From Actinomycetota bacterium (GTDB lineage: Bacteria; Actinomycetota; CALGFH01): DNA of 32,559 nt. Position numbers and translations under genes: made by a program. Below the pieces are notes generated by a model that saw nothing but the letters and a program-made list of their open reading frames with translations, searched no databases and was not told the origin of the DNA. Positions 2,124-28,597 of this stretch are shown in pieces (position 1 is the first letter of the stretch; every line of letters begins with the position of its first letter). The DNA lies in assembly GCA_036280995.1 (NCBI GenBank), contig DASUPQ010000239.1, positions 1 through 32,559 on the forward strand, in the 5' to 3' direction.

Positions 2124-2699
2124 GTGCAGCTGTACGCCGGGCTGGTGCTCTACGGCGTGTCGATGGCGCTGATGGTGCGCTCCTCGCTCGGGGTGATGCC
2201 CTGGGACGTGCTGCACCAGGGGCTCGCCCGCCAGCTGGGCTGGTCGCTGGGGACGGTCACGATCGTCGTCGGGACGCTGGTGCTGCTGGCCTGGATACCG
2301 CTGCGCGAGCGGCCGGGGCTCGGCACCCTCAGCAACGTCGTGGTCGTGGGGCTGGCCGTGGACGCGGTCCTGGCCGTGCTGGCGGCGCCGGAGGGACTGG
2401 CCTGGCGGGCCGCCTTCGCCGCCTCGGGCATCCTGCTCAACGGCGTGGCCACGGCCGCCTACATCGGGGTCGACCTGGGGCCAGGGCCGCGCGACGGGCT
2501 CATGACCGGGCTGGTGCGGCGCACCGGCGGCCCGGTTGGCCTGGTCCGGACGGCCATCGAGGTCGTGGTGGTCGCGACCGGCTGGCTGCTGGGCGGCACC
2601 CTCGGGGTCGTGACCGTGCTCTACGCCCTGACCATCGGGCCGCTGGTCCACGTGCTCCTGCCCCGGCTCACGGTCGCCCCGGCCGGAGCGGCCCGCTAG
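2124..2699 (+). CDS. YczE/YitT-type multipass membrane protein
   Basis: An integral membrane protein of about 191 residues resembling the YczE family. The N-terminal segment LYAGLVLYGVSMALMVRSSLG is followed by the family-like GVMPWDVLHQGL, and about five hydrophobic helices follow, with a central conserved-looking stretch AAYIGVDLGPGPRDGLMTG. Start uncertain: GTG 2124 leaves only two residues before the first helix, whereas relatives have about a dozen. The codons just upstream (ISHDRRLPRRL, from the rare ATT at 2091 that overlaps the previous stop) look like a natural basic N-terminus, so translation may begin at 2091 or by coupling. ATG at 2022, well inside the zinc-ribbon gene, is less likely. 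The stop codon shares a CTAG palindrome with the convergent hydrolase gene. Confidence 0.75.
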   Translation: MQLYAGLVLYGVSMALMVRSSLGVMPWDVLHQGLARQLGWSLGTVTIVVGTLVLLAWIPLRERPGLGTLSNVVVVGLAVDAVLAVLAAPEGLAWRAAFAASGILLNGVATAAYIGVDLGPGPRDGLMTGLVRRTGGPVGLVRTAIEVVVVATGWLLGGTLGVVTVLYALTIGPLVHVLLPRLTVAPAGAAR

Positions 2700-3499
2700 C
2701 TGGCGAGCTCGGCCTCGGGGTCGGCCTTGAGGTCCATGGCGGCGGCCTCGAGGGCCTCGCGGACGGCGCGGCCGTAGATGGTGCCGAGGAAGGCGTAGCC
2801 GGCGCTGGAGGGGTGGAACCGGTCGGCGCTGAACATCTCCCGCTTGCCGTGGAAGGCCGACTTGGTCAGCTTGGCGATGTCGAACACCGAGATGCCGTGC
2901 GGGGTCAGCTCGGCCCGGTACAGGCGGGTGAAGAGCAGCGCCCGGAGGCCGATCAGGTCGCGCAGGGGCCGGTGGAAGGCGGTCGCGGTCTCGGCCGGGG
3001 GCAGGCCGGAGACGATCACCTTGGCGTCGGGGGCGACCTCGGCCAGGCCGTCGACCAGCAGCCGGAGCTGGCGGCGGGCCTCACGGAGCCTGGTCCCGTG
3101 GGTGACGTCGTTGGTGCCGACGCAGACCAGCACGATGTCCGGCTCCAGGCCGTCGACCTGGGGGAGCTGCTTGCCGACGACGTCGGCCAGGCGCGACCCG
3201 GAGACGCCGAGGGCGTGGAGGCTGACCAGGTACTGGTCGCTGAGGGCCTTGGCCACCCCGTAGGTGAGGGTGTCCTCGGCGGCGTCGGCACCCACCCCGG
3301 CGACCGAGCTGTCGCCGAGGACGACCAGCGTAAGTGGCTCGCCGTCCTCCGGGCCGATGGTGCCGCTGATCTCCAGCGGCGGGTGGGAGGGAACAAACGG
3401 GTGGCGCCGGGCCGCCATGACCTCGGCGGCCAGCGTGGTCGCCAGCGCGCCCACCCCGAGCAGGGTCGCCCGACCAAGGTGCCGGACAGCGATGCCCAA
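2696..3499 (-). CDS. SGNH/GDSL-family hydrolase (esterase/lipase type)
   Basis: An SGNH hydrolase with all four blocks, numbered from the TTG start at 3499: block I VVLGDSSVAG with nucleophile Ser64, block II glycine in LHALGVSGSRL, block III VGTNDV with Asn130, and block V DRFHPSSAGY with Asp226 and His229. An N-terminal hydrophobic stretch (RATLLGVGALATTLAAEVMA) suggests a membrane anchor or uncleaved signal. The frame is open to a GTG at 3592, but no ribosome site precedes that codon. TTG 3499 has GAGGAGG at 3505-3511 with a 5-base spacer and a good promoter just upstream, so the shorter 267-residue form is preferred. The substrate is probably an acyl or acetyl ester; it cannot be specified. 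Confidence 0.8.
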   Translation of the reverse strand: MGIAVRHLGRATLLGVGALATTLAAEVMAARRHPFVPSHPPLEISGTIGPEDGEPLTLVVLGDSSVAGVGADAAEDTLTYGVAKALSDQYLVSLHALGVSGSRLADVVGKQLPQVDGLEPDIVLVCVGTNDVTHGTRLREARRQLRLLVDGLAEVAPDAKVIVSGLPPAETATAFHRPLRDLIGLRALLFTRLYRAELTPHGISVFDIAKLTKSAFHGKREMFSADRFHPSSAGYAFLGTIYGRAVREALEAAAMDLKADPEAELAS

Positions 3500-3521
3500 C
3501 AGCGCCTCCTCGTACGAGTCC

Positions 3522-3550
3522 AGCGTACGGGTTGCTGACCGGTTTGTGAA
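3522..3550 (-). promoter_or_regulatory. promoter of the SGNH hydrolase gene, inside the longest ORF
   Basis: On the minus strand: TTCACA (3550-3545, five of six to TTGACA), exactly 17 bases, then TACGCT (3527-3522, TAnnnT). The start site would fall near 3515, just before the GAGGAGG ribosome site at 3511-3505 and the TTG codon at 3499. This locally AT-richer stretch supports the shorter coding region. Confidence 0.5.
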
Positions 3551-3668
3551 GCCTGCAACCACCGTACGCGGCGCTGTGTCGCGGACCGTCACCTCACGAT
3601 CTGGCTACAGGTCCTCCAGGCCGGCCAGGGGGCTGGAGGGTTCAGTGGCCGATCGCCGGGCGGGCGCC

Positions 3669-3674
3669 TACCAT
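3669..3674 (+). promoter_or_regulatory. -10 element of a possibly leaderless nth transcript
   Basis: TACCAT (TAnnnT) ends six bases before the nth ATG, and no Shine-Dalgarno sequence lies between. At normal -10 to +1 spacing the transcript would start at or next to the A of the start codon. No convincing -35 was seen. Confidence 0.4.
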
Positions 3675-3680
3675 CCCGCC

Positions 3681-4412
3681 ATGCCCGCCTCCCCGACCGG
3701 CGCCGTGCCCCGGCGCCGAGAGTCCAAAGCCGCCAAGGCGGCCCGCGCGGCCGAGATCCGGGCCCGGCTGGCCGCCCGCTACCCGGTCGTCACCACCGCC
3801 CTTGACCACCGGTCGGCCTGGGAGCTGCTGGTCGCGACCATCCTGTCCGCCCAGTCGACCGACGTGGTCGTCAACCAGGTCACCCCCGAGCTGTTCCGCC
3901 GCTGGCCGACCCCGGCCGACCTGGCCGCCGCCGACCGGGCCGAGGTGGAGCAGGCCATCCACGCCACCGGGTTCTTCCGCAACAAGGCCAGGTCGATCCA
4001 GGGGGCGGCCGCCTACCTGCTCGAGCACCACGGCGGCGAGGTCCCCGAGACCATCGACGAGCTGGTCGAGCTGCCCGGGGTCGGCCGCAAGACGGCCAAC
4101 GTGGTCCTGGGCACGTTCTTCTCCCGCAACGACGGTGTGGTGGTCGACACCCACGTCGGGCGGCTGACGCGCCGCCTCGGCCTGACCGCCAACCAGGACC
4201 CGGTCAAGGTCGAGCGCGACCTGATGGCCCTGCTGCCGATGGAGGAGTGGACGATCTTCTCCCACCGCCTCATCTGGTTCGGGCGCGAGGTGTGCACGGC
4301 CAAGGACCCGCGCTGCGACCGCTGCGAGCTGGCCGACCTCTGCCCGTCGGCGTTCAAGGTGGGCCGGTTCGCGAAGGCGGCCAAGCCGGGCGAGGACCGT
4401 GCTGGTCGCTGA
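3681..4412 (+). CDS. nth: endonuclease III (Nth), base-excision repair glycosylase/AP lyase
   Basis: A 243-residue endonuclease III, which removes oxidised pyrimidines and cleaves at abasic sites. The helix-hairpin-helix is ELPGVGRKTANVVL, with the catalytic lysine Lys137 in it; the catalytic aspartate is Asp156 in VVVDTHVGRLTRRLGL. The [4Fe-4S] cluster ligands follow the canonical C-x6-C-x2-C-x5-C pattern at Cys205, Cys212, Cys215 and Cys221. A basic 30-residue N-terminal extension precedes the core, common in actinobacterial forms. ATG 3681 is chosen because the frame upstream has no family similarity and a -10-like hexamer sits six bases before it. The 3' end overlaps acuB by 14 bases, so nth heads the operon. 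Confidence 0.95.
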   Translation: MPASPTGAVPRRRESKAAKAARAAEIRARLAARYPVVTTALDHRSAWELLVATILSAQSTDVVVNQVTPELFRRWPTPADLAAADRAEVEQAIHATGFFRNKARSIQGAAAYLLEHHGGEVPETIDELVELPGVGRKTANVVLGTFFSRNDGVVVDTHVGRLTRRLGLTANQDPVKVERDLMALLPMEEWTIFSHRLIWFGREVCTAKDPRCDRCELADLCPSAFKVGRFAKAAKPGEDRAGR

Positions 4413-5037
4413 GGCCATGACCCCGCGGCCGGTGACGGTGGCGCCGGACGCGACCGTCGCCGCCGCCCTCTCGGCCATGCGCCGGGGGCGGTTCCGGCAC
4501 CTGCCGGTGGTGGCCGCGGCCGAGCTGGTCGGGGTCGTGTCCAACAGCGACCTGGAGACCTCGCCGGGAGCGCCGGTGGAGGCGGCCGAGTCGCTCGGCG
4601 ACCGCCCGGTGGCCGAGGTCATGACCGGCCAGCCGGTCACCGTCTGGCCCGACGAGCCGGTCGAGGTCGCGGCCAGGCTGCTGGTCGAGCACGCCATCGG
4701 CTGCCTGCCGGTGGTGGCCGACGAGGGCCTGGTCGGGATCCTCACCGAGTCCGACCTGTTCTTGGTGCTCCTGCGGCTGCTCGGGGGTGGCGAGCCGTCG
4801 AGCCGCATCACCCTGGTCCTGCCCGACGTGCCCGGCGCCCTCGGGCGGGCCATGACCGTCGTCGGCGACCTCGGGGTCAACCTGCTCACCGTGGTCACCG
4901 AGCCCGGACCCGAGCCCGGCACCCGCGGGGTCGTCCTGCGGGCCGGGACCATCAACGCCGCCCCGGTGGTGGCCGCCCTGGCCGCCGCCGGCTTCGCCGC
5001 CTCCGGGCCCGGCCGGCCCGACCCGGACGACCGGTGA
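4399..5037 (+). CDS. acuB: AcuB-like CBS-CBS-ACT protein
   Basis: A 212-residue protein with two CBS motifs (about 5-52 and 72-125, each beginning with an AMTPRPVTV- or VMTGQPVTV-type strand) and a C-terminal ACT domain (about 135-203: ITLVLPDVPGALGRAMTVV). This CBS-CBS-ACT order is that of AcuB, encoded with acuA and acuC in Bacillus. Both modules usually bind small ligands (adenylates in CBS, often amino acids in ACT), so a ligand-sensing role is likely; AcuB's biochemical job is not settled. The GTG start lies inside nth and the stop overlaps acuCA as GTGA, so the three genes are tightly coupled. A general CBS-ACT regulator is possible on sequence alone; the neighbouring gene makes the AcuB assignment much stronger. 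Confidence 0.85.
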   Translation: MLVAEAMTPRPVTVAPDATVAAALSAMRRGRFRHLPVVAAAELVGVVSNSDLETSPGAPVEAAESLGDRPVAEVMTGQPVTVWPDEPVEVAARLLVEHAIGCLPVVADEGLVGILTESDLFLVLLRLLGGGEPSSRITLVLPDVPGALGRAMTVVGDLGVNLLTVVTEPGPEPGTRGVVLRAGTINAAPVVAALAAAGFAASGPGRPDPDDR

Positions 5038-6833
5038 GCGGCGCCTGCGCGCTCGCCGCCGACGAGCGGCTGGCCGCCTACGACTTCGGGCCCGACCACC
5101 CGTTCCAGGCCGGCCGGCTGGCGGCCGGGATGTCGCTGCTGCGGGCGGCCGGGGTGCTGGACGACGACGACCTGCTGGCGTTCGGGCCGGCCGCCGGCGC
5201 CGACCTGGAGCTGATCCACGACCGCGACTACCTGGACGCCCTGGCCCGTTTCTCGGCGCCGGGGGCGGCCGCGGCCGACCCGGCCGAGGCGGCCCGCTGG
5301 GGGCTGGTCGGTGACAACCGGCCGTTCCCGGGCATGGACGCGGCGGCCCGGCTGGTCGCGGGGGCGACCACGGCCGCCCTTGACGCGGTCGCCGGGGGTG
5401 AGCTGGCGCACGTGTTCGCGCCCGTGGCCGGCCTCCACCACGCCCAGCGGCGCCGCGCCGTCGGGTTCTGCCTGGTCAACGACGTCGCCGTGGCCATCGC
5501 CCGCTGCACCCGGGCCTGGCCGCTGCGGGTGCTCTACGTCGACCTGGACGCCCACCACGGCGACGGCGTCCAGGCCGCCTTCTACGACGACCCGCGGGTG
5601 TGCACGGTCAGCCTGCACGAGACCGGCCGCTACCTGTTCCCCGGGTCCGGCGAGGTGCACGAGCTGGGCCGCCCGCCCGGGGTGGGGCGCAGCGTCAACC
5701 TGCCCCTGGAGCCGCGGACCGGCGACGACGGCTTCCTGGCCGCCTTCGACGCCGTGGTCGAGCCGCTGGCCGCCGCGTTCCGGCCCGACGTGCTGGTCAC
5801 CCAGAACGGCTGCGACGGCCACGCCGACGACCCGCTCAGCGACCTCGAACTGAGCCTGCGCGGCCTCCGGGCGCTGGCCAGGCGGCTGCACCGGCTCGCC
5901 CACCGCCACTGCCAGGGCCGCTGGGTGGCCACCGGGGGTGGCGGCTACGACCTGGACCGGGTGGTCCCGAGGGCCTGGGCGCTGCTCTGGTCGGAGCTGA
6001 GCGGCCGCCGACTGCCGGCGAGGATGACGGCCGACTGGCTGGAGTCGCGGCGGCGCCAGCGGCGCCGGGCCCCCGCGCCCGGGTGGCGGGAGCGGGAGGA
6101 GCGCAACCAGCGGACCGTCCGGGCGCTGCGGCGGCTGGTCCTGCCCCCGGCCGTGCGGGTCGTCTACCCGCTGGCCGGGCGGGGCGGCGGGGCCGGGCGG
6201 CTGCCGACGTGGGAGCCGCGGGCCGGCGAGCACCTGGCCCCGGGCGGCGCTCTGGTGCTCCGCGACCGCAGCCCGGCCTCGCTGCTGCGCCGGCTCGAGG
6301 TCGACCCGGGCATCCACGCCTTCGTCCGCGACCCCGCCCAGGAGCGGGAGGTGCTGGCCCGGATCGCCGAGGAACCCAACGGCGAGGTGGTGGTCGCCCA
6401 CACGCCCGAGGGGGTGGTGGTCGGGTACGTGGCCGTGCTCGACCCCGAGCCCGGCAGCCGCTTCGCCAGCCTCCCCGGCCTGCTCGAGGTCGGCGCCGTC
6501 GAGGTGGCCACCGGCTGGCGGCGGGGCGGGGTGGCCGGCGCCCTGCTGCGCTTCGCCGTCGAGCCCGACCCCTTCGAGGACCTCATCCTGATCGCCTCCG
6601 GCCTGGCCTGGCATTGGGACCTGGAGCAGAGCGGCCTGTCGGCGACCGCCTACCGGCGGGTCCTGCGGCGGGTGTTCGAGGTCGCGGGGTTCGAGGCGCT
6701 CCAGACGGACGAGCCGGAGATCGCCTACCACCCGGCCAACCTGTTCGTGGCCCGCGTCGGCAGCCGGGTGCCGCCGGCCCGCCGGGCCGCCTTCACCAGC
6801 CGGCTGGTCCGGGGCCACCACGCCATGCCGTGA
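5034..6833 (+). CDS. acuC: AcuC deacetylase-AcuA acetyltransferase fusion
   Basis: A 599-residue protein with two opposing enzymes. Residues 1-330 are a class I/II histone-deacetylase fold like AcuC. It has the histidine pair His135-His136 (GLHHAQ), zinc ligands Asp172 and His174 in YVDLDAHHGDGVQAAFYDD, a third ligand Asp261 in QNGCDGHADDPLSDL, and the transition-state Tyr305 in TGGGGYDL; all are intact. A basic linker (about 331-390) follows. Residues about 395-595 match AcuA, the GNAT acetyltransferase: LLRRLEVDPGIHAF, an acyl-CoA loop RRGGVA at 496-501, WHWDLEQSGLSATAYRRV, and TDEPEIAYHPANLFVARVG. In Bacillus subtilis AcuA acetylates and silences acetyl-CoA synthetase and AcuC reactivates it. 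Here both activities sit in one chain beside AcuB. No acetyl-CoA synthetase gene is in the window, so the target is inferred. GTG start overlaps the acuB stop. Confidence 0.85.
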   Translation: MSGACALAADERLAAYDFGPDHPFQAGRLAAGMSLLRAAGVLDDDDLLAFGPAAGADLELIHDRDYLDALARFSAPGAAAADPAEAARWGLVGDNRPFPGMDAAARLVAGATTAALDAVAGGELAHVFAPVAGLHHAQRRRAVGFCLVNDVAVAIARCTRAWPLRVLYVDLDAHHGDGVQAAFYDDPRVCTVSLHETGRYLFPGSGEVHELGRPPGVGRSVNLPLEPRTGDDGFLAAFDAVVEPLAAAFRPDVLVTQNGCDGHADDPLSDLELSLRGLRALARRLHRLAHRHCQGRWVATGGGGYDLDRVVPRAWALLWSELSGRRLPARMTADWLESRRRQRRRAPAPGWREREERNQRTVRALRRLVLPPAVRVVYPLAGRGGGAGRLPTWEPRAGEHLAPGGALVLRDRSPASLLRRLEVDPGIHAFVRDPAQEREVLARIAEEPNGEVVVAHTPEGVVVGYVAVLDPEPGSRFASLPGLLEVGAVEVATGWRRGGVAGALLRFAVEPDPFEDLILIASGLAWHWDLEQSGLSATAYRRVLRRVFEVAGFEALQTDEPEIAYHPANLFVARVGSRVPPARRAAFTSRLVRGHHAMP

Positions 6834-7471: not shown

Positions 7472-7536
7472 CGTGCGTGATGCTTGACCGGTAGTTGAGG
7501 CATCACCCTCCGAACCTGTTTCATACCCGCTCTGTG

Positions 7537-9846
7537 ATGCGGACCGGGGAGGACATGGCGCAGCCCGTCCAGACCACCACCACACGCCGGTCGGGGGGAG
7601 CGGCTCTCCTGGCGATCCCGCTGCTGGCCGTGCTGGTCCTTGCCGGCATCGGCCTGGCCGCCAACCTCCGGGCCGGTGCCCGGGCCGAGCGGGTGCGGGG
7701 GCTGGCGCCCTTCACCGGCGCCCTGAACACCCTGGTCCACGACCTCCAGCGGGAGCGGAGCCTGTCCGCCGCCCAGGTCCCGTCCCGGCCCACCCTGGAC
7801 GCGGCCCGGGTGGCGGTCGACGGGACCGCCGCCCGCTACCGGGACGCCGCCGTCCAGGTCGAGATCTCGGACCGCGACCGCCAGCTCCACCAGCGCCTCG
7901 ACAGCGGGCTGGCCCGGCTGGCCGAGCTCACCGCCCTGCGGGCCTCGGTCGGCGCGGCCGGGCGGGGGGGCGAGTCCGACCCGGTCACCGTGTTCCGCCG
8001 CTACACCGAGATCATCGGCAACCTGCTGGCCGTCGGCGGCGAGATCGGCCTCCGCGAGGCCGGCCAGGACGCCGGGCTGCTCCAGGCCGTCACCGCCGCC
8101 ACCGCCTTCTCCCGGGCCAAGGAGCTCGCCGACCGCGAGCGCGAGGCCGCCGCCCAGGCCGCCGCCAGCGGCGCCCTCGCCCCCACCGAGCGGACCCGCC
8201 TGGCCGCCCTCGGCGGCCGCCAGGACGTCCTGCTCGACCAGTTCGCCGCCCTGGCCAGCCCCGGCCAGCGGGCCAGGTACGCCCGCGCCTTCCCCGCCGC
8301 CGAGGGCGGCCAGACCGCCCGCCTCCGCCGCGCCGCCCTGGCCGCCGGGCCGGGCCCAGGGGCCGAGGCCGACCTGGCCGGGTGGTCCAAGGCCACCACG
8401 ACCAGGTTCGAGCGCATGCGGGAGGTCGAGCTCGGCCTGACCGCCGAGGTGGCCGCCCTGGCCGCCCAGGCCGACCGGGCCGCCGCCCGCCGGGTCCTGG
8501 CCTATGCCATGGTCCTGTTCCTCGCCGCCAGCGCCCTGGTCGTCCTCCTGGTCCTGACCCCGGGCCGCACCCGCCGTTCCAACGCCCCAGATCGCGTCCC
8601 ACCCCGCGACCGGGCCCCGGGTGGCGTCCCACCCCGCGACCGGGCCCCGGGTGACGTCCGACCCCGCGACCGGGCTCTCGACCCGGCCCTCGACCCGGGC
8701 ACGCCGGAACCCCACCCGCCGGTGCCGGCCCCCCCGGTGGGGGAGCGTAGCCTAACGGCGACGGGCGAGTTCGCGGCTCTCCACACCCCCCACACCCTGC
8801 CTCCGGCGAGCCGCGGCTCCCACACCCCTCCTCCAGCTGTCCACACCTCCCCGGTGGGCGAGGTTGGGCCGGAGCTGGCGGACCTGGCCAGGCGGAGTCA
8901 GGACCTGGTGGACCAGCAGCTGGAGCTGCTCGACCAGGTCGCGCGGGACCAGGCCGACCCGCGGCTGCCGGGGCGGCTGCTCCAGGTCGACCGGCTGGCC
9001 GTGCGGGCCCGGCGCAACGCCCACAACCTGATCGTGCTGGCCGGGGGGGAGCCCGGTGGCGCCTGGGAGGAGTCGGCGCCGCTGGCCGAGGTCGTCTCGG
9101 TGTCGGTCCGCGACAACCCGGACGCCCACCGGGTCGACCTGGAGGTCACCGACGACCTGCTGGTGCCCGGGTCGGCGACCGACGACCTGGCCAACCTGCT
9201 GGCCGAGCTGGTGGACAACGCCACCTCCTTCTCGGCCCCGGAGACCAGGGTGCGGGTCGGCGGGCAGAAGGTCGGCTCCGGCTACGTCCTGGAGGTCGAG
9301 GACCGCGGCCTGGGCATGACCGACGGGGAGCTGGTCGCGGTCAACCGGCGGCTGTCCGGCGAGCAGGCGGCCGGCGACGACCTGGAGCAGCGGCTCGGCA
9401 CCTGGGTGGCCGGGCGCCTGGCGGCGCGCCACGACGTGCGGGTGCAGCTGCGCCGCTCGGCCTACGGCGGCGTGACCGCGCTGGTGTTCCTTCCCGAAGG
9501 GCTGGTCGACGCGCCGCCGCCGGTGCCGCCCGTCGAGCAGGAGGAGGCGCCGGACGGCCAGGTCGAGCAGGCCAGCGACGCCGCCCTGGCCGGCCTGCCG
9601 ATGCGCCGCTACGTGACCCAGCGGGCCCCGGCCGAGGACCAGCCCCTGCCCAAGCGGGCGCCGCACACCAGCCTCGCCCCCGACCTGGCCGCCACCGGCC
9701 AGCCGGGCGACCCCGAGTCCCCGCCCGCCGCCCGGTCGCCCGAGCAGGTCAGGAACATGCTGACCAGGTACCGCTCGGGCCTGGAGCGCGGCCGGGCCGC
9801 CGCCCGCGACCTGCCCGACGACCCCGACGGCGACCGCACGGCCTGA
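7537..9846 (+). CDS. NIT-domain transmembrane sensor histidine kinase-like ATPase
   Basis: A 769-residue sensor. TM1 is at about 20-43. An extracellular helical NIT (nitrate/nitrite-type) sensor follows, starting LVHDLQRERSLSAAQ, and TM2 is at about 321-343. Then comes a low-complexity proline-rich linker with a 10-residue tandem repeat (354-383), a dimerisation-like helix (VRARRNAHNLIVLAGGEPGG) and a GHKL ATPase domain with N box ELVDNATSFSAP, G1 box EDRGLGM and a final LRRSAYGGVTALVFLP. As in the CvnA group of actinobacteria, the helix has no obvious H-E/D phosphoacceptor box. The C-terminal 130 residues are disordered. No cvnB-D genes follow, so this is an orphan. Start uncertain: ATG 7537 has no ribosome site; ATG 7555 has GGGGAGG at 7546-7552 but only two bases away. 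Confidence 0.8.
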   Translation: MRTGEDMAQPVQTTTTRRSGGAALLAIPLLAVLVLAGIGLAANLRAGARAERVRGLAPFTGALNTLVHDLQRERSLSAAQVPSRPTLDAARVAVDGTAARYRDAAVQVEISDRDRQLHQRLDSGLARLAELTALRASVGAAGRGGESDPVTVFRRYTEIIGNLLAVGGEIGLREAGQDAGLLQAVTAATAFSRAKELADREREAAAQAAASGALAPTERTRLAALGGRQDVLLDQFAALASPGQRARYARAFPAAEGGQTARLRRAALAAGPGPGAEADLAGWSKATTTRFERMREVELGLTAEVAALAAQADRAAARRVLAYAMVLFLAASALVVLLVLTPGRTRRSNAPDRVPPRDRAPGGVPPRDRAPGDVRPRDRALDPALDPGTPEPHPPVPAPPVGERSLTATGEFAALHTPHTLPPASRGSHTPPPAVHTSPVGEVGPELADLARRSQDLVDQQLELLDQVARDQADPRLPGRLLQVDRLAVRARRNAHNLIVLAGGEPGGAWEESAPLAEVVSVSVRDNPDAHRVDLEVTDDLLVPGSATDDLANLLAELVDNATSFSAPETRVRVGGQKVGSGYVLEVEDRGLGMTDGELVAVNRRLSGEQAAGDDLEQRLGTWVAGRLAARHDVRVQLRRSAYGGVTALVFLPEGLVDAPPPVPPVEQEEAPDGQVEQASDAALAGLPMRRYVTQRAPAEDQPLPKRAPHTSLAPDLAATGQPGDPESPPAARSPEQVRNMLTRYRSGLERGRAAARDLPDDPDGDRTA
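8596..8685 (+). repeat. 30-bp tandem repeat, three copies, in the sensor-kinase linker
   Basis: Three head-to-tail 30-base units start at 8596, 8626 and 8656 and encode VPPRDRAPGG, VPPRDRAPGD and VRPRDRALDP. Units 1 and 2 are almost identical; unit 3 is diverged at its end. The array lies just after TM2, where a HAMP domain would sit in many kinases, and keeps the frame. Confidence 0.85.
8731..8791 (+). repeat. dispersed 61-bp element, copy A, inside the sensor-kinase gene
   Basis: Begins with a hairpin-forming 20-mer (8731-8750: CCCCC-GGT-GGGGG, then AGCGTAG) that occurs exactly, in reverse complement, at 30993-31012. The similarity continues without gaps through 61 bases, 45 identical by my count, ending in TCCACA plus a C run. 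It is translated here as part of a proline-rich linker. Further TCCACA-like words and a second CCCCGGTGGG follow up to about 8865. Confidence 0.65.
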
Positions 9847-16317: not shown

Positions 16318-18276
16318 TCAGCTTCGGGCCGTCGCTTGATCAGCCTGCACAGAGAGGATGGCGGCGAGGCGCCGGACCCGCGGGTCGGCGGCCAGGTCGT
16401 CGAGCAGGACGGGCAGGGGCAGAGACCAGTTCGGCCGCTGGTCGATGGTGCCGGGGACGTTGGGCCGGTCGGGGGCCTCGACCGCGTCCTCGAGGGTGGC
16501 CGCGACCAGCATGGCCGGGGTCCGGGCAAGGAAGCCGTACAGGGCGGCCACGATCGCCTCGACCGACCGCTCGCCGGGGGCGAGCAGGCCCTCGTCCTCC
16601 AGCAGCCGGCACAGGCTGTCCCGCTGTTCCTCCTGGTCGGCCTGCTCCTGGCCGCCGGGCGTGGCCACCCCGATGTCGAAGAGGTGGTCCAGGTCGCTGC
16701 CGGTGAAGAACCCGGCCACGGTGGGCAGGTCGTGGGTGGTGGTGGCGGCCAGGGCGAGCCGGGGGTAGTCGGCCGCCCGCCGCCGGCGGCCGGCGTGGTC
16801 GTGCTCGAACCAGGCCAGCCGGTAGGAGAGCACCCCCTCGGCGGCCAGCCGCTCCCGCACCCCGGGCTCGACCGTGCCCAGGTCCTCGCCCACCACCAGG
16901 GCCGCCGCCCGGTGGCTCTCCAGGGCCAGGACCCCGAGGAGGTCGTCGGCCGGGTAGCGGACGTAGGTGCCCTGCGCCGGCTCGGCCCCCTCGGGGATCC
17001 AGAACAGGCGGAACAGGCCCATCACGTGGTCGATGCGCAGGCCGGCGGCATGGGCCATGCCGGCCCGGATGGTCTGGGCGAACGGCCCGTAGCCGCCGGC
17101 GGCGAGGCGGTCGGGCACGAACGCCGGCAGGCCCCAGTCCTGGCCGTGCCGGCCCAGCGGGTCGGGCGGGGCGCCGACCGACATCCCGGCGGCCAGCTCG
17201 TCCTGGAACGACCAGGCGTCGAAGCCGTCGGGGGCGAAGCCGATGGCCAGGTCGTTCACCACCCCGAGCTGACCCTCGGCCGGCCGGGCGGCGGCCAGCT
17301 GCTGGTCGAGCAGCCACTGGAGCCAGGCGTGGTAGCCGGCCTCCTCGGCGTGGCCGGCGCCGGCCTCGGCCACCTCGGGGCGGCCGGGATGGCGGTAGGC
17401 GGCGGGCCAGGCCCGCCAGTCGTCGCCGTGGAGGTGCTGGAGGGCGCAGAAGACGGCGTACCGCTCCAGGTTCGGGGTGGCGGCCCGGTAGGCGGCCAGC
17501 CCGTCGCGGCGGCCCGGGACCCGGTCCGTGGCCGCGTAGGCGAGGCGCAGGGCCGCATCCTTCAGCCGGTACACGGCCACCCGGTCGATCCGGTCCCGGT
17601 CGAGCAGGTCGCGGCCGGCGGCGGCCAGGGCCTCCACCCGGGCCCGCGCCTCCGGGTCGAGCCCGGCCAGCTCGGGCACGTCCTCGACCCGCAGGTAGAG
17701 GGGGTTGCGGAACACCCGGCTGGAGGGGTTGTAGGGGCTCGGCTCACCCGGCAGGGCGGCGTGGAAGGGATTGAGCAGCGCGAACCCGGCGCCCAAGGGC
17801 GCCGTGGCCGCCAGCAGCCCGGCCAGGTCGCCGAGGTCGCCCATGCCCCAGCTGCGGCGCGAGCGGACGGCGTAGAGCTGGGCGGCCCAGCCCCAGGCAC
17901 GGCCCCCGTCGTCCAGCGCCTGCGGCAGGTGGCAGCGTCCGGGCGCGACCACCAGGGTGGTGGCGCCGGTCCGGCCCTCCAGCCGGTGCCAGCCCGGGGG
18001 CAGGTCGCCGGGCAGCCCGACCGGGACCGGCCGCTCCTGGCCGCCCTCCAGCACCAGCGTGACCGGCTCGCCCGCCGGGGGGCTCCAGCCGGCCCGCTGG
18101 CCGCTGCGGGCGACCACCACCGGGGGCCAGACCGCCCGGCCCGGCGGGGGGCCCATGGCGTCGAGCACGGCCTCGAGGGTGGCCTGCGAGACCTCGTACG
18201 TCTGGTTGGCGGCGTCGGTGAACCGGGTGGCGACTCCGCGCGCTTCGGCGATCCGGCGGAGCTCGTCGAGCGTCAT
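16318..18276 (-). CDS. malQ: 4-alpha-glucanotransferase (amylomaltase, GH77)
   Basis: A 652-residue GH77 enzyme that transfers maltodextrin segments between chains and releases glucose. The N-terminal beta-rich region (about 1-125) is typical of the long bacterial form. The core has WGMGDLGDL (143-151), a substrate loop with EPSPYNPSSRVFRNPLYL, nucleophile Asp416 in LRIDHVMGLFRLFWIPEG, acid/base Glu464 in VVGEDLGTVEPGV, and the third carboxylate Asp516 in TTTHDLPTVAGFF. All three catalytic residues are present. The ATG has no ribosome site, but TAACCT lies six bases upstream, so the mRNA may be leaderless. It is divergent from glgX, 50 bases apart, and may share its control. Confidence 0.93.
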   Translation of the reverse strand: MTLDELRRIAEARGVATRFTDAANQTYEVSQATLEAVLDAMGPPPGRAVWPPVVVARSGQRAGWSPPAGEPVTLVLEGGQERPVPVGLPGDLPPGWHRLEGRTGATTLVVAPGRCHLPQALDDGGRAWGWAAQLYAVRSRRSWGMGDLGDLAGLLAATAPLGAGFALLNPFHAALPGEPSPYNPSSRVFRNPLYLRVEDVPELAGLDPEARARVEALAAAGRDLLDRDRIDRVAVYRLKDAALRLAYAATDRVPGRRDGLAAYRAATPNLERYAVFCALQHLHGDDWRAWPAAYRHPGRPEVAEAGAGHAEEAGYHAWLQWLLDQQLAAARPAEGQLGVVNDLAIGFAPDGFDAWSFQDELAAGMSVGAPPDPLGRHGQDWGLPAFVPDRLAAGGYGPFAQTIRAGMAHAAGLRIDHVMGLFRLFWIPEGAEPAQGTYVRYPADDLLGVLALESHRAAALVVGEDLGTVEPGVRERLAAEGVLSYRLAWFEHDHAGRRRRAADYPRLALAATTTHDLPTVAGFFTGSDLDHLFDIGVATPGGQEQADQEEQRDSLCRLLEDEGLLAPGERSVEAIVAALYGFLARTPAMLVAATLEDAVEAPDRPNVPGTIDQRPNWSLPLPVLLDDLAADPRVRRLAAILSVQADQATARS

Positions 18277-18282
18277 GCCCGG

Positions 18283-18288
18283 AGGTTA
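18283..18288 (-). promoter_or_regulatory. -10 element of a possibly leaderless malQ transcript
   Basis: TAACCT (TAnnnT, minus strand 18288-18283) ends six bases before the malQ ATG, and the intervening CCGGGC is no ribosome site. The spacing is the same as at nth. Confidence 0.4.
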
Positions 18289-18306
18289 CGGCACACTGAC
18301 CCGACC

Positions 18307-18326
18307 ATGACCACCTGCGGCGGGCG

Positions 18327-18330
<4 letters not shown>
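18307..18330 (+). other. seven-codon mini-ORF overlapping the glgX start
   Basis: ATG at 18307 reads MTTCGGR then TGA at 18328-18330, which overlaps the glgX ATG (18327-18329) as ATGA. glgX itself has no ribosome site, so translation of the mini-ORF could feed glgX by coupling. Short and unproven. Confidence 0.25.
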
Positions 18331-20458
<2,128 letters not shown>

Positions 20459-25127: not shown

Positions 25128-26043
25128 ATGACGACCTTCGAGCTGGTGCCGGCCGGGCCGTTCTCGCTGGAGGCGGGGGCGGCGTTCCTGGAGGGGTTCT
25201 CGCCGGCCGCGTACCGGGGGGCGGGGGCCGGGCACCTGCACCTGGCGTTCGTGCCGGACGGGGAGGAGGCGGCGGGCGGGGTGTGCCTGCGGCAGCCGGA
25301 CGGGGTGGTCGTGGGGGAGGTGTTCGGGGATGCCGACCCCGGGGCCGTGCGGGAGCAGGTGGCGCGGATCCTGTCGCTGGACGTGGACGGGAGCGGGTTC
25401 CCGGCGGTGGGGCGGCGCGACCCCGTGGTCGGCCGGCTGCAGGGGCGCTGGCCGGGGCTGCGGCCGGTGGGGTTCTGCTCGCCGTACGAGGCGGCCGCGT
25501 GGGCGCTGATCGGGCACCGGATCCAGATCGTGCAGGCGGCCAGGATCAAGGAGCGGATGGCGGCCGCGCTGGGCCAGGCGGTCGACATCCACGGCGACGT
25601 GCGCCATGCCTTTCCCGGGCCGGGGCGGCTGGCCGGCCTCGAAGGGTTCCCGGGGGCTGTTCGAGGGCAAGGTGGCCAACCTCCGCGCCCTGGCCGTTGA
25701 GGCGATGGACGGCCGCCTCGACGGAGCCTGGCTGCGCCAGCTCCCACGCGACCAGGCCCTCAAGGAGCTGAAGCAGCTCCAGGGGATCGGCGACTTCTCG
25801 GCCGAGCTGGTGCTGCTCCGCGGGGCCGGCGACCCCGACCACCTGCCCCTGCACGAGCCCCGCCTGTGCCGCGGGGCGGCCATCGCCTATGGCCTGGACG
25901 AGCCGCCCGGCCGCGAGTGGCTGGAGGAGCGCGCCCAGGCCTGGCGTCCCTACCGGACCTGGGTCGTGCTCCTGCTCCGGGTCCTGCTCGAGGCCGAGAC
26001 GGGCGAGACCGGCGGCACCCGCGACGTCGGCGGGCGCCGCTGA
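25128..26043 (+). pseudogene. frameshifted AlkA-like DNA-3-methyladenine glycosylase
   Basis: Two overlapping frames together make one HhH-GPD glycosylase of about 304 residues. Frame 1 runs from ATG 25128 (TTFELVPAGPFSLEAGAAFL) to about 25650 (FPGPGRLAGLEGFPG). Frame 2 resumes with LFEGKVANLRALAVEA, LQGIGDFSAELVLLRGAGDP (the helix-hairpin-helix) and YRTWVVLLLRVLL up to the TGA at 26041. Removing one G from the run GGGGG at 25652-25656 joins them. Either the gene is inactivated or this is an indel error in the assembly. The expected catalytic aspartate after the hairpin is replaced by Glu in PLHEPRL. TAGAGC lies six bases before the ATG and no ribosome site is seen. It ends 19 bases from glgP, convergent. 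Confidence 0.75.
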
Positions 26044-26062
26044 CCCGCGGCCGCCGCCCCGG

Positions 26063-28597
26063 TCAGGCCCAGGCGACCAGGCCGAGCTCGGAGGCGGAGG
26101 CCAGGCCGACGTGGCGGGGGACGACCCGGACGGTGTAGCCGAAGGCGCCCGGGGTGGCCAGGGGGACCTCGCCCTCGAACGCCCAGCCGTCGGTGGTGCG
26201 CTCGCCGTCCTGCTTGAGGGTGGTCAGCGCGACCTCGGGGAGCTCGTCGGCGTCGTCGACCCGCCCGTAGGCGACCTGGACCTCGACCTCGTCCGGGTCG
26301 AGGTCGCCCAGCTCGACGAAGGCCCTGACGGTGAACCTGGCCCCGAGCAGGCGCTCCTTGACGCCGTTCTCGACCCGGCGCACGGACACCCCCGGCCACG
26401 CCGCCGCGGCCCGGCGCTTCCACTCGGCGAGCTCCTTGGAGGCGGCGAAGTCGTCGCCGGCCAGGCGCCGCGAGGTCGTGGCCGCGGGCAGGTAGTAGCC
26501 CTCGGTGTAGTCGCGGACCATGCGGCTGGCCAGGATGGCCGGTCCCAGCGAGACCAGGTTGTGCTTGATCATCGAGATCCAGCCCCTGGGCAGGCCGTCC
26601 GGCCGGTCGTAGAACAGCGGCAGGACCTCGTGCTCCAGCAGGTCGTAGATGGACGCCGCCTCCAGCTGGTCGCGGCGGTCGGGCTCGATGGTCGGGTCGT
26701 CGGCCGAGGGGATGGCCCAGCCGTTGTGGCCGTCGTACAGCTCGTCCCACCAGCCGTCGCGGATCGACAGGTTGAGGCAGCCGTTGAGGGCCGCCTTCAT
26801 GCCGCTGGTCCCGCAGGCCTCGTACGGCCGCAGCGGGTTGTTGAGCCAGACGTCGGACCCGGCGACCAGTGTCCTGGCCATGGCCATGTCGTAGTCGGGC
26901 AGGAACGCGACCCGGTGCCGGACCTTGGCCTGGGCGGCGAAGCGGGCGAAGTCGGCGATCAGCGACTTGCCGCCCTCGTCGGCCGGGTGGGCCTTGCCGG
27001 CGATCAGCAGCTGGATCGGCCGCTCCTCGTCCAGCAGCAGCCGGGTCAGCCGCTCCTCGTCCTCCAGCAGCAGGGTGAGCCGCTTGTAGGAGGGCACGCG
27101 GCGGGCGAAGCCGACGGTCAGCACCTCCGGGTCGAAGGCCCGGTCGATCCAGCCGAGCTGGCCCTCGCTGGACCCTCGGGCCAGCCAGGCCCGCTTCAGC
27201 CGGGCCCGGACGTCGTCGACCAGCCGCTCGCGGGCGATCCGCCGCACCCGCCAGATGTCCTCGTCGGGGGTGTCGGCCAGCGGCGCCCAGGCGGCGCCCG
27301 AGACGCGGAAGTCGGCCCCGAGGCGGCGCTCGAACAGCTCGCTGAACTCGCGGTTGATCCAGGTGCCGGCGTGGACGCCGTTGGTGACGTGCCCGATCGG
27401 CACCTCGGCCTGCTCGAAGCCGGACCACAGGCCGCGGAACATGCCCCGCGACACCTGGCCGTGGAGGCGGCTGACCCCGTTGGCCCGCTGGGCCAGGCGC
27501 AGGCCCATGATGGCCATGTTGAACATCGAGTGGTCGCCGTCGGGCTCGGCCCCGAGCTCGACGATCTGGTCGACCCCGATGCCGGTCTCGACCCCGTGCC
27601 CGCCGAAGTAGCGCTCGATGAAGGACCGCGGGAAGCGGTCGATGCCGGCCGAGACCGGCGTGTGGGTGGTGAAGATGGTGCCGGCCCTGACCGTCTCGAT
27701 TGCGGTGGCGGCGTCCAGGCCCTGCTCCTGGATGAGGCGGCGGATGCGCTCCAGGCCGAGGAACCCGGCGTGGCCCTCGTTGGTGTGGAACACCTCGGGC
27801 TCGATTCCGAGGGCGTGGAGGGCGCGGACCCCGCCGATGCCGAGCAGGATCTCCTGGCGCAGCCGGTGCTCGCCCCCGCCGCCGTAGAGGCGGTCGGTGA
27901 CCGCCCGCTCGGCCGGGCCGTTCTCGTCCACGTCGGAGTCCAGCAGCAGCAGCGGCGCCCGGCCGACCTCGGCCCGCCAGATCTGGGCGTGGAGCACGCC
28001 GTCGGGCAGGCGAACCGAGACCAGCAGCGGCTTGCCGCCGCCGTCGCGGACCAGCTCGAAGGGGAGCTCGTGGGGGTTGAAGGCCGGGTAGGACTCCTGC
28101 TGGCGGCCGTCGGCCGTCAGCGACTGGCGGAAGTAGCCCGAGCGGTAGAACAGGCCGACCCCGACCACGGGGACGCCCAGGTCGCTGGCCGCCTTGAGGT
28201 GGTCGCCGGCGAGCACGCCGAGGCCGCCGGAGTACTGGGGCAGGACCTCGCTGACGCCGAACTCGGGCGAGAAGTAGGCGATGCGGGAGGGGGCGTTGGC
28301 CAGGGTCTGGTACCAGCGGGGCTCGTCCAGGTAGGTCTCGAGGTCCTCGAGCAGGGCCTGCTGGCGGGCGAGGAAGTCGCGGTCGGCGGCGGCCTGCTCG
28401 AGGACGTGGGCGTCGGTCTCGTTCAGCATGCGCAGCGGGTTGTGCCCGGAGGCCTCCCAGCCGGCGGGGTCGATGGCGCGGAACAGCTCCTGGGTGGCCG
28501 GGTGCCAGCTCCAGCGGAGGTTGTGGGCGAGGACGCGGAGGGGGGTGAGGGCGTCAGGCACGGTGGGCAGCACCGTGAATCGGTGTAGAGGTCTCAT
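26063..28597 (-). CDS. glgP: alpha-glucan (glycogen/maltodextrin) phosphorylase, GT35
   Basis: An 844-residue alpha-glucan phosphorylase releasing glucose-1-phosphate from chain ends. The N-terminal DUF3417 segment (LRVLAHNLRWSWHPATQELF) marks the short-form alpha-glucan phosphorylase subfamily rather than the classical muscle-like type. Recognisable parts are AYFSPEFGVSEVLPQYSGGLG, NEGHAGFLGLERI, TTHTPVSAGIDRF, GHVTNGVHAGTWI and, near the C-terminal lobe, EACGTSGMKAALNGCLN with the pyridoxal-phosphate lysine at about residue 601. ATG 28597 is preferred to an upstream in-frame codon because TATGAT lies nine bases before it and the 17 extra residues look unconserved. With GlgX and MalQ in the window this completes a glycogen breakdown set. 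Confidence 0.93.
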   Translation of the reverse strand: MRPLHRFTVLPTVPDALTPLRVLAHNLRWSWHPATQELFRAIDPAGWEASGHNPLRMLNETDAHVLEQAAADRDFLARQQALLEDLETYLDEPRWYQTLANAPSRIAYFSPEFGVSEVLPQYSGGLGVLAGDHLKAASDLGVPVVGVGLFYRSGYFRQSLTADGRQQESYPAFNPHELPFELVRDGGGKPLLVSVRLPDGVLHAQIWRAEVGRAPLLLLDSDVDENGPAERAVTDRLYGGGGEHRLRQEILLGIGGVRALHALGIEPEVFHTNEGHAGFLGLERIRRLIQEQGLDAATAIETVRAGTIFTTHTPVSAGIDRFPRSFIERYFGGHGVETGIGVDQIVELGAEPDGDHSMFNMAIMGLRLAQRANGVSRLHGQVSRGMFRGLWSGFEQAEVPIGHVTNGVHAGTWINREFSELFERRLGADFRVSGAAWAPLADTPDEDIWRVRRIARERLVDDVRARLKRAWLARGSSEGQLGWIDRAFDPEVLTVGFARRVPSYKRLTLLLEDEERLTRLLLDEERPIQLLIAGKAHPADEGGKSLIADFARFAAQAKVRHRVAFLPDYDMAMARTLVAGSDVWLNNPLRPYEACGTSGMKAALNGCLNLSIRDGWWDELYDGHNGWAIPSADDPTIEPDRRDQLEAASIYDLLEHEVLPLFYDRPDGLPRGWISMIKHNLVSLGPAILASRMVRDYTEGYYLPAATTSRRLAGDDFAASKELAEWKRRAAAAWPGVSVRRVENGVKERLLGARFTVRAFVELGDLDPDEVEVQVAYGRVDDADELPEVALTTLKQDGERTTDGWAFEGEVPLATPGAFGYTVRVVPRHVGLASASELGLVAWA

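Follow-up and report, generated by a model that had tools for sequence, protein, structure and literature searches.

Results and Discussion

The window, by which we mean the whole 32,559-nucleotide stretch of DNA that was analysed (contig DASUPQ010000239.1 of the Actinomycetota assembly GCA_036280995.1), contains a gene that we call acuCA. It starts with GTG, runs without an internal stop codon and joins an AcuC-type lysine deacetylase to an AcuA-type acetyltransferase in one polypeptide. The stop codon of acuB, the gene in front of it, overlaps the acuCA start by four bases (GTGA). The histidine kinase gene follows after a gap of about 660 bases, and oligopeptide transporter genes are found downstream as well. 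The features are collected in Table 1. Elsewhere in the window lie two long putative open reading frames without a Pfam match, 25889-28588 (+, 899 aa) and 18273-20165 (-, 630 aa).

Table 1. Features of the acuB-acuCA region (window positions; residue numbers refer to the fusion protein).
Feature	Position	Strand	Remarks
Endonuclease III (nth)	3264-4412		Upstream of acuB
acuB, two CBS domains and an ACT domain; predicted to sense nucleotides and to inhibit the AcuC half	4399..5037	+	Pfam CBS 9e-31; ACT below cut-off; PDB AcuB matches
acuCA fusion gene	5034..6833	+	599 aa; homologous fusions in other genomes
AcuC-type class I Zn deacetylase domain, residues 22-321	5097..5996	+	PF00850 (Hist_deacetyl) E 2.8e-81; H135, H136, D172, H174, D261, Y305
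AcuC C-terminal tail and interdomain linker, residues 326-404	6009..6245	+	Partly low model confidence; N358 invariant
AcuA GNAT domain and free C-terminal tail, residues 405-599	6246..6830	+	2q04 and 9g7f chain C matches; E490, R496, WHW 526-528, G523
Histidine kinase with N-terminal NIT (nitrate/nitrite sensing) domain and ATPase domain	7495-9846	+	About 660-base gap after the fusion

Both halves of the protein could be assigned. The deacetylase half is recognised by Pfam as the original prediction had anticipated (Table 1), and the N-terminal half of the structural model, with its arginase/deacetylase fold, matches HDAC structures (Foldseek 5.5e-22). The residues that had been named as catalytic, His135/136, Asp172, His174, Asp261 and Tyr305, are all found at these positions; together with G303 and G304 they provide the Zn ligands, the catalytic His pair and the GGY tyrosine. 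The AcuA half gave no GNAT or AcuA match in Pfam or NCBIfam at a threshold of E 0.001. A phmmer search of residues 395-599 against the PDB returned the AcuA structure 2q04 at 2e-31 over nearly the full domain (residues ~405-595) and B. subtilis AcuA, chain C of the AcsA-AcuA complex 9g7f, at 1.3e-26, again over nearly the full domain. Residues E97, E102 and R108 of the B. subtilis protein (BsAcuA) correspond to E485, E490 and R496 of the fusion, and the 138-WHW-140 motif, including H139 and W140, is kept as W526, H527 and W528. Mutation of BsAcuA has shown that E102, the general base, and W140 are both required for acetyltransferase activity (PMC11255334). The GNAT domain, described earlier as intact-looking, thus holds up to this comparison. 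One position is different: E135 is replaced by G523. An AlphaFold2 model based on 26 fusions shows two folded domains (mean pLDDT 78, pTM 0.62), with low-confidence stretches falling within residues 341-387; the placement of the domains relative to each other is not to be read from it.

The neighbouring CBS-ACT protein, which had been suggested as one factor that might set the balance of the two activities, turned out to be an AcuB. Its highest-scoring hits in the PDB are AcuB structures from Geobacillus and Bacillus (9s4w at 1.1e-32, 9s4v, 9qs7; down to 2.7e-26). Bacillus AcuB is an adenine-nucleotide sensor that inhibits AcuC (PMC13121692, PMC13039410), so that the suggested control becomes specific. 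The effect of Ap4A is disputed: in one study AMP-loaded AcuB inhibits and Ap4A releases AcuC (PMC13121692), whereas in the other Ap4A enhances the inhibition (PMC13039410). An overlap of acuB and acuC is likewise present in B. subtilis (PMC13039410). The window AcuB keeps R33 and H34, both nucleotide/Ap4A-binding positions; position 33 is H in 11 of 21 aligned AcuB proteins. The equivalents of R51 and K120, which contact AcuC or Ap4A in Bacillus, are not conserved in the fusion group, and the nucleotide specificity may therefore differ from that in Bacillus. Including the window, 18 of the 20 fusion loci examined have acuB as their immediate upstream neighbour, mostly within tens of bases; of the remaining two, one (L230) reaches the end of its contig at this point.

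Conservation is strong in both halves. All of the listed deacetylase residues and the AcuA residues E97, E102, R108 and WHW (BsAcuA numbering) are invariant in the 29 fusions of the Chloroflexota/window group, and both catalytic sets stay invariant in a 26-row alignment that includes a fusion from Bacillota. For seven pairs of related fusions, several with dS near saturation, we obtained dN/dS values of 0.03-0.09 for the AcuC half and 0.02-0.14 for the AcuA half, so that selection acts on both. The two domains are both better conserved than the linker region. Within the AcuC tail that precedes the AcuA domain, N358 is invariant and R350 and I354 are near-invariant in the 26-row alignment; these residues may simply belong to the native AcuC tail. 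At the position of BsAcuA E135, each of the 29 Chloroflexota/window fusions has G. Of the stand-alone AcuA proteins of Actinomycetota, the phylum of the window, 24 of 25 have G or A, while 28 of 30 Bacillota copies have E. The residue follows a split between phyla: AcuA proteins of Actinomycetota and Chloroflexota almost always have G or A here, those of Bacillota E. The E135A/Q variants of B. subtilis AcuA show a raised use of acetyl phosphate plus CoA (PMC11255334), and the enzymes of the Chloroflexota/window group may lean the same way.

The expected target is present. The window genome encodes the acetyl-CoA synthetase AcsA, for which a search of the remaining genome had been proposed, in two parts, one at the end of contig C209 and the other at the start of contig C215. 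It contains the target motif PDLPKTRSGKIMRR, and those AcsA loci listed with their C-terminus carry PKTRS(G/A)KIMRR. Among the fusion genomes tested, 26 of 27 have AcsA at E below 1e-200. In the window, acsA is not adjacent to acuB-acuCA. The genome also has a stand-alone AcuC (C646, 9518-10510; L169) that is 52% identical to the fused one, occurs in both relatives of the window genome and groups with actinobacterial AcuC in the tree. A weaker AcuC fragment lies on contig C403. A second AcuA was searched for in the window genome and not found, and several other AMP-forming acyl-CoA synthetases are encoded.

How widespread is the fusion? A scan of 84,980 species genomes added two Chloroflexota MAGs (L004, L005) that have a fusion and the same acuB-acuCA arrangement. 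We then found AcuA in 33 of 400 sampled Chloroflexota genomes, 27 of which have an in-frame AcuC upstream on the same strand. In the Actinomycetota sample AcuA is present in 26 of 397 genomes and is fused only in the window (1 of 26). The Bacillota sample has AcuA in 64 of 399 genomes with a single fusion (1 of 64; genome G848, locus L246, 592 aa), the status of the other 63 being judged by open-frame length. This Bacillota fusion (G848:C34:203000-211000, 2497-4275, +) has the AcuC-AcuA order too, with acuB just upstream; separate acuA, acuB and acuC genes are the rule in this phylum. Genome G519 carries, beside its fusion, a second, stand-alone AcuA that falls within the clade of the fusions. 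In each of two large Chloroflexota genomes (G730:C1:5321080-5321639 and G748:C1:4516260-4516825) the AcuA matches extend over two frames and are possibly frameshifted fusion genes.

These data also bear on the question of whether the gene is real. The window genome is an assembly of 959 contigs with an estimated contamination of 3.7%, and neither of the two other genomes of its class in our collection, one of the same genus and one of the same family, has the fusion. The neighbouring nth and NIT kinase genes were not found in the stretches of the same-family genome that were examined. Against an artefact stand about 29 additional fusions from other genomes, of which several lie on contigs of 4 to 11 Mb; they rule out a frameshift or a chimeric assembly. 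A misbinned contig is ruled out as well: 5.5 kb of the same contig (window 15373-20851) are 91% identical to the same-genus genome, whose contig C54 ends inside the matching block, and in its tetranucleotide profile the acu region agrees both with the remainder of the window and with other contigs of the genome. The contig is native to the genome, and we regard the chance that two genes were joined by an assembly or sequencing error, or that the contig is foreign, as negligible. The prediction of one continuous protein thus stands.

The trees tell us that the fusion did not arise only once. In the tree of the AcuC half, the Chloroflexota fusions form one clade (SH-aLRT 98), the window sits on a long branch nearest to them and the Bacillota fusion lies among Bacillota and other AcuC; grouping the window with Chloroflexota is not rejected (p 0.52). 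In the AcuA tree, window and Chloroflexota fusions group together (support 92) with three unfused-looking Chloroflexota AcuA inside. Because these three (L233, L202 and L244) nest there, a single clade of window and Chloroflexota fusions is mildly rejected for the AcuA half (p 0.02); one of them, L244, begins at the end of a contig and may itself be a fusion that was cut short. A single origin of all fusions is rejected for the Bacillota protein on the AcuA half (AU p 1e-44 with all fusions held together). Since its AcuA half groups with Bacillota proteins, apart from the others, the AcuC-AcuA fusion arose in the same order at least twice, in Bacillota independently. The patchy presence, the second, native AcuC and the tree placement suggest that the window acuCA was probably acquired laterally from a Chloroflexota-type lineage.

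What could such a protein do? Bacillus AcuA binds AcsA and acetylates it at K549, which inactivates and releases AcsA, and AcuC takes the acetyl group off again; the C-terminus of AcuA plugs the CoA site of AcsA (PMC11255334, PMC11910552). The premise of the original prediction, that separate proteins carry out these reactions there, is therefore correct. We consider it quite probable, judging from the conserved residues and the gene layout, that acuCA encodes a bifunctional converter that acetylates and deacetylates AcsA, with AcuB controlling the AcuC half. The C-terminal AcuA half would bind AcsA and, when acetyl-CoA is plentiful, acetylate the catalytic lysine and switch the enzyme off. 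The N-terminal AcuC half would hydrolyse the acetyl group and switch it on again. AcuB, probably co-translated, would read adenine nucleotides and inhibit the AcuC half, so that the net direction would depend on acetyl-CoA, which acts on the AcuA half, and on AcuB with its bound nucleotide, which acts on the AcuC half. The fusion would fix the two activities at 1:1, and it leaves the AcuA C-terminus free. Some points count against the converter: owing to the stand-alone AcuC the fusion is not the only AcuC-type deacetylase of the window genome, acsA lies away from the operon and several AcuB contact residues vary.

The strongest competitor, to which we give somewhat less than an even chance, sees in the fusion only a device for co-expression and stoichiometry, in which the domains act on AcsA independently and no new regulation is gained. 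It shares its chemistry with the converter, and our confidences in the two overlap. The less conserved and partly poorly modelled linker would fit such a device, as would the usual separation of the three genes in Bacillota and the stand-alone AcuA of G519, which indicates that the AcuA part can exist unfused. On the other hand, most of the sampled Chloroflexota with AcuA keep the fusion, which evolved twice with the same domain order, and the AcuC tail retains its conserved residues, with the caveat given above. A more elaborate reading is a reciprocal switch, in which the linker would couple the binding of AcuB to the AcuC half with that of AcsA or acetyl-CoA to the AcuA half, one activity rising as the other falls. 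We consider this unlikely. In this reading the invariant G at the E135 position would also favour acetyl phosphate plus CoA as donor.

Less probable still is a switch that acts mainly on a substrate other than AcsA, such as a different acyl-CoA synthetase or perhaps an elongation factor. The genome offers several AMP-forming candidates, its acsA stands outside the operon and B. subtilis AcuC also deacetylates TufA (PMC13039410); yet the catalytic and AcsA-contacting residues of AcuA are invariant, and AcsA accompanies the fusion in all but one of the genomes tested. That one half has become a non-catalytic scaffold or a decayed enzyme is very improbable. The second AcuC of the window genome would speak for it, but every catalytic residue of both halves is invariant and dN/dS is well below 1 in both.

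Conclusion

In summary, an AcuC-AcuA fusion preceded by acuB is present in the window genome. What appears to be new is the joining in one chain, its wide occurrence in Chloroflexota and the fact that it arose repeatedly, while the parts and their chemistry are known from Bacillus AcuABC. In the openly licensed literature on AcuA, AcuB, AcuC and bacterial deacylase diversity we found neither a described AcuC-AcuA fusion, in line with the original prediction, nor an activity assay of a fused protein, and an earlier mention is possible; the fusion also occurs outside this genome, is common in AcuA-bearing Chloroflexota and has at least two origins. If both halves are active, an acetyltransferase and a deacetylase with opposing action on the same target would reside in one chain. 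The natural fused and split versions in related genomes would allow a direct test of what is achieved by joining opposing enzymes in a metabolic switch, and the fusion could serve as a ready-made construct for the AcuABC-AcsA cycle outside Bacillus.

Bifunctional converter enzymes are exemplified by AceK, the isocitrate dehydrogenase kinase/phosphatase, and by GlnE and GlnD. To our knowledge, opposing enzymes in one chain are known for phosphorylation, adenylylation and uridylylation, and not for protein acetylation. The window protein resembles AceK, GlnE and GlnD in that opposing modification and removal would be combined in one protein, with a metabolic enzyme or its regulator as the target. 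It differs from them in that the modification would be lysine acetylation and in that its two activities would reside in a Zn deacetylase and a GNAT domain, whose folds are unrelated. With AcuA/AcuB/AcuC and AcsA of B. subtilis it shares homologous domains and the AcuB neighbour, the kept catalytic residues, the four-base acuB overlap and the same AcsA motif; different are the single polypeptide in AcuC-AcuA order, the change of E135 to G in 29 fusions and the acsA gene that does not adjoin the operon. GNAT acetyltransferases with fused regulatory domains have also been described, namely the ACT-GNAT protein AAPatA and the cAMP-binding Pat (PMC6434083, PMC6456759). Like acuCA, these are protein lysine acetyltransferases fused to another domain. 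Their partner domain senses a ligand, however, whereas the partner in acuCA is an antagonistic deacetylase.
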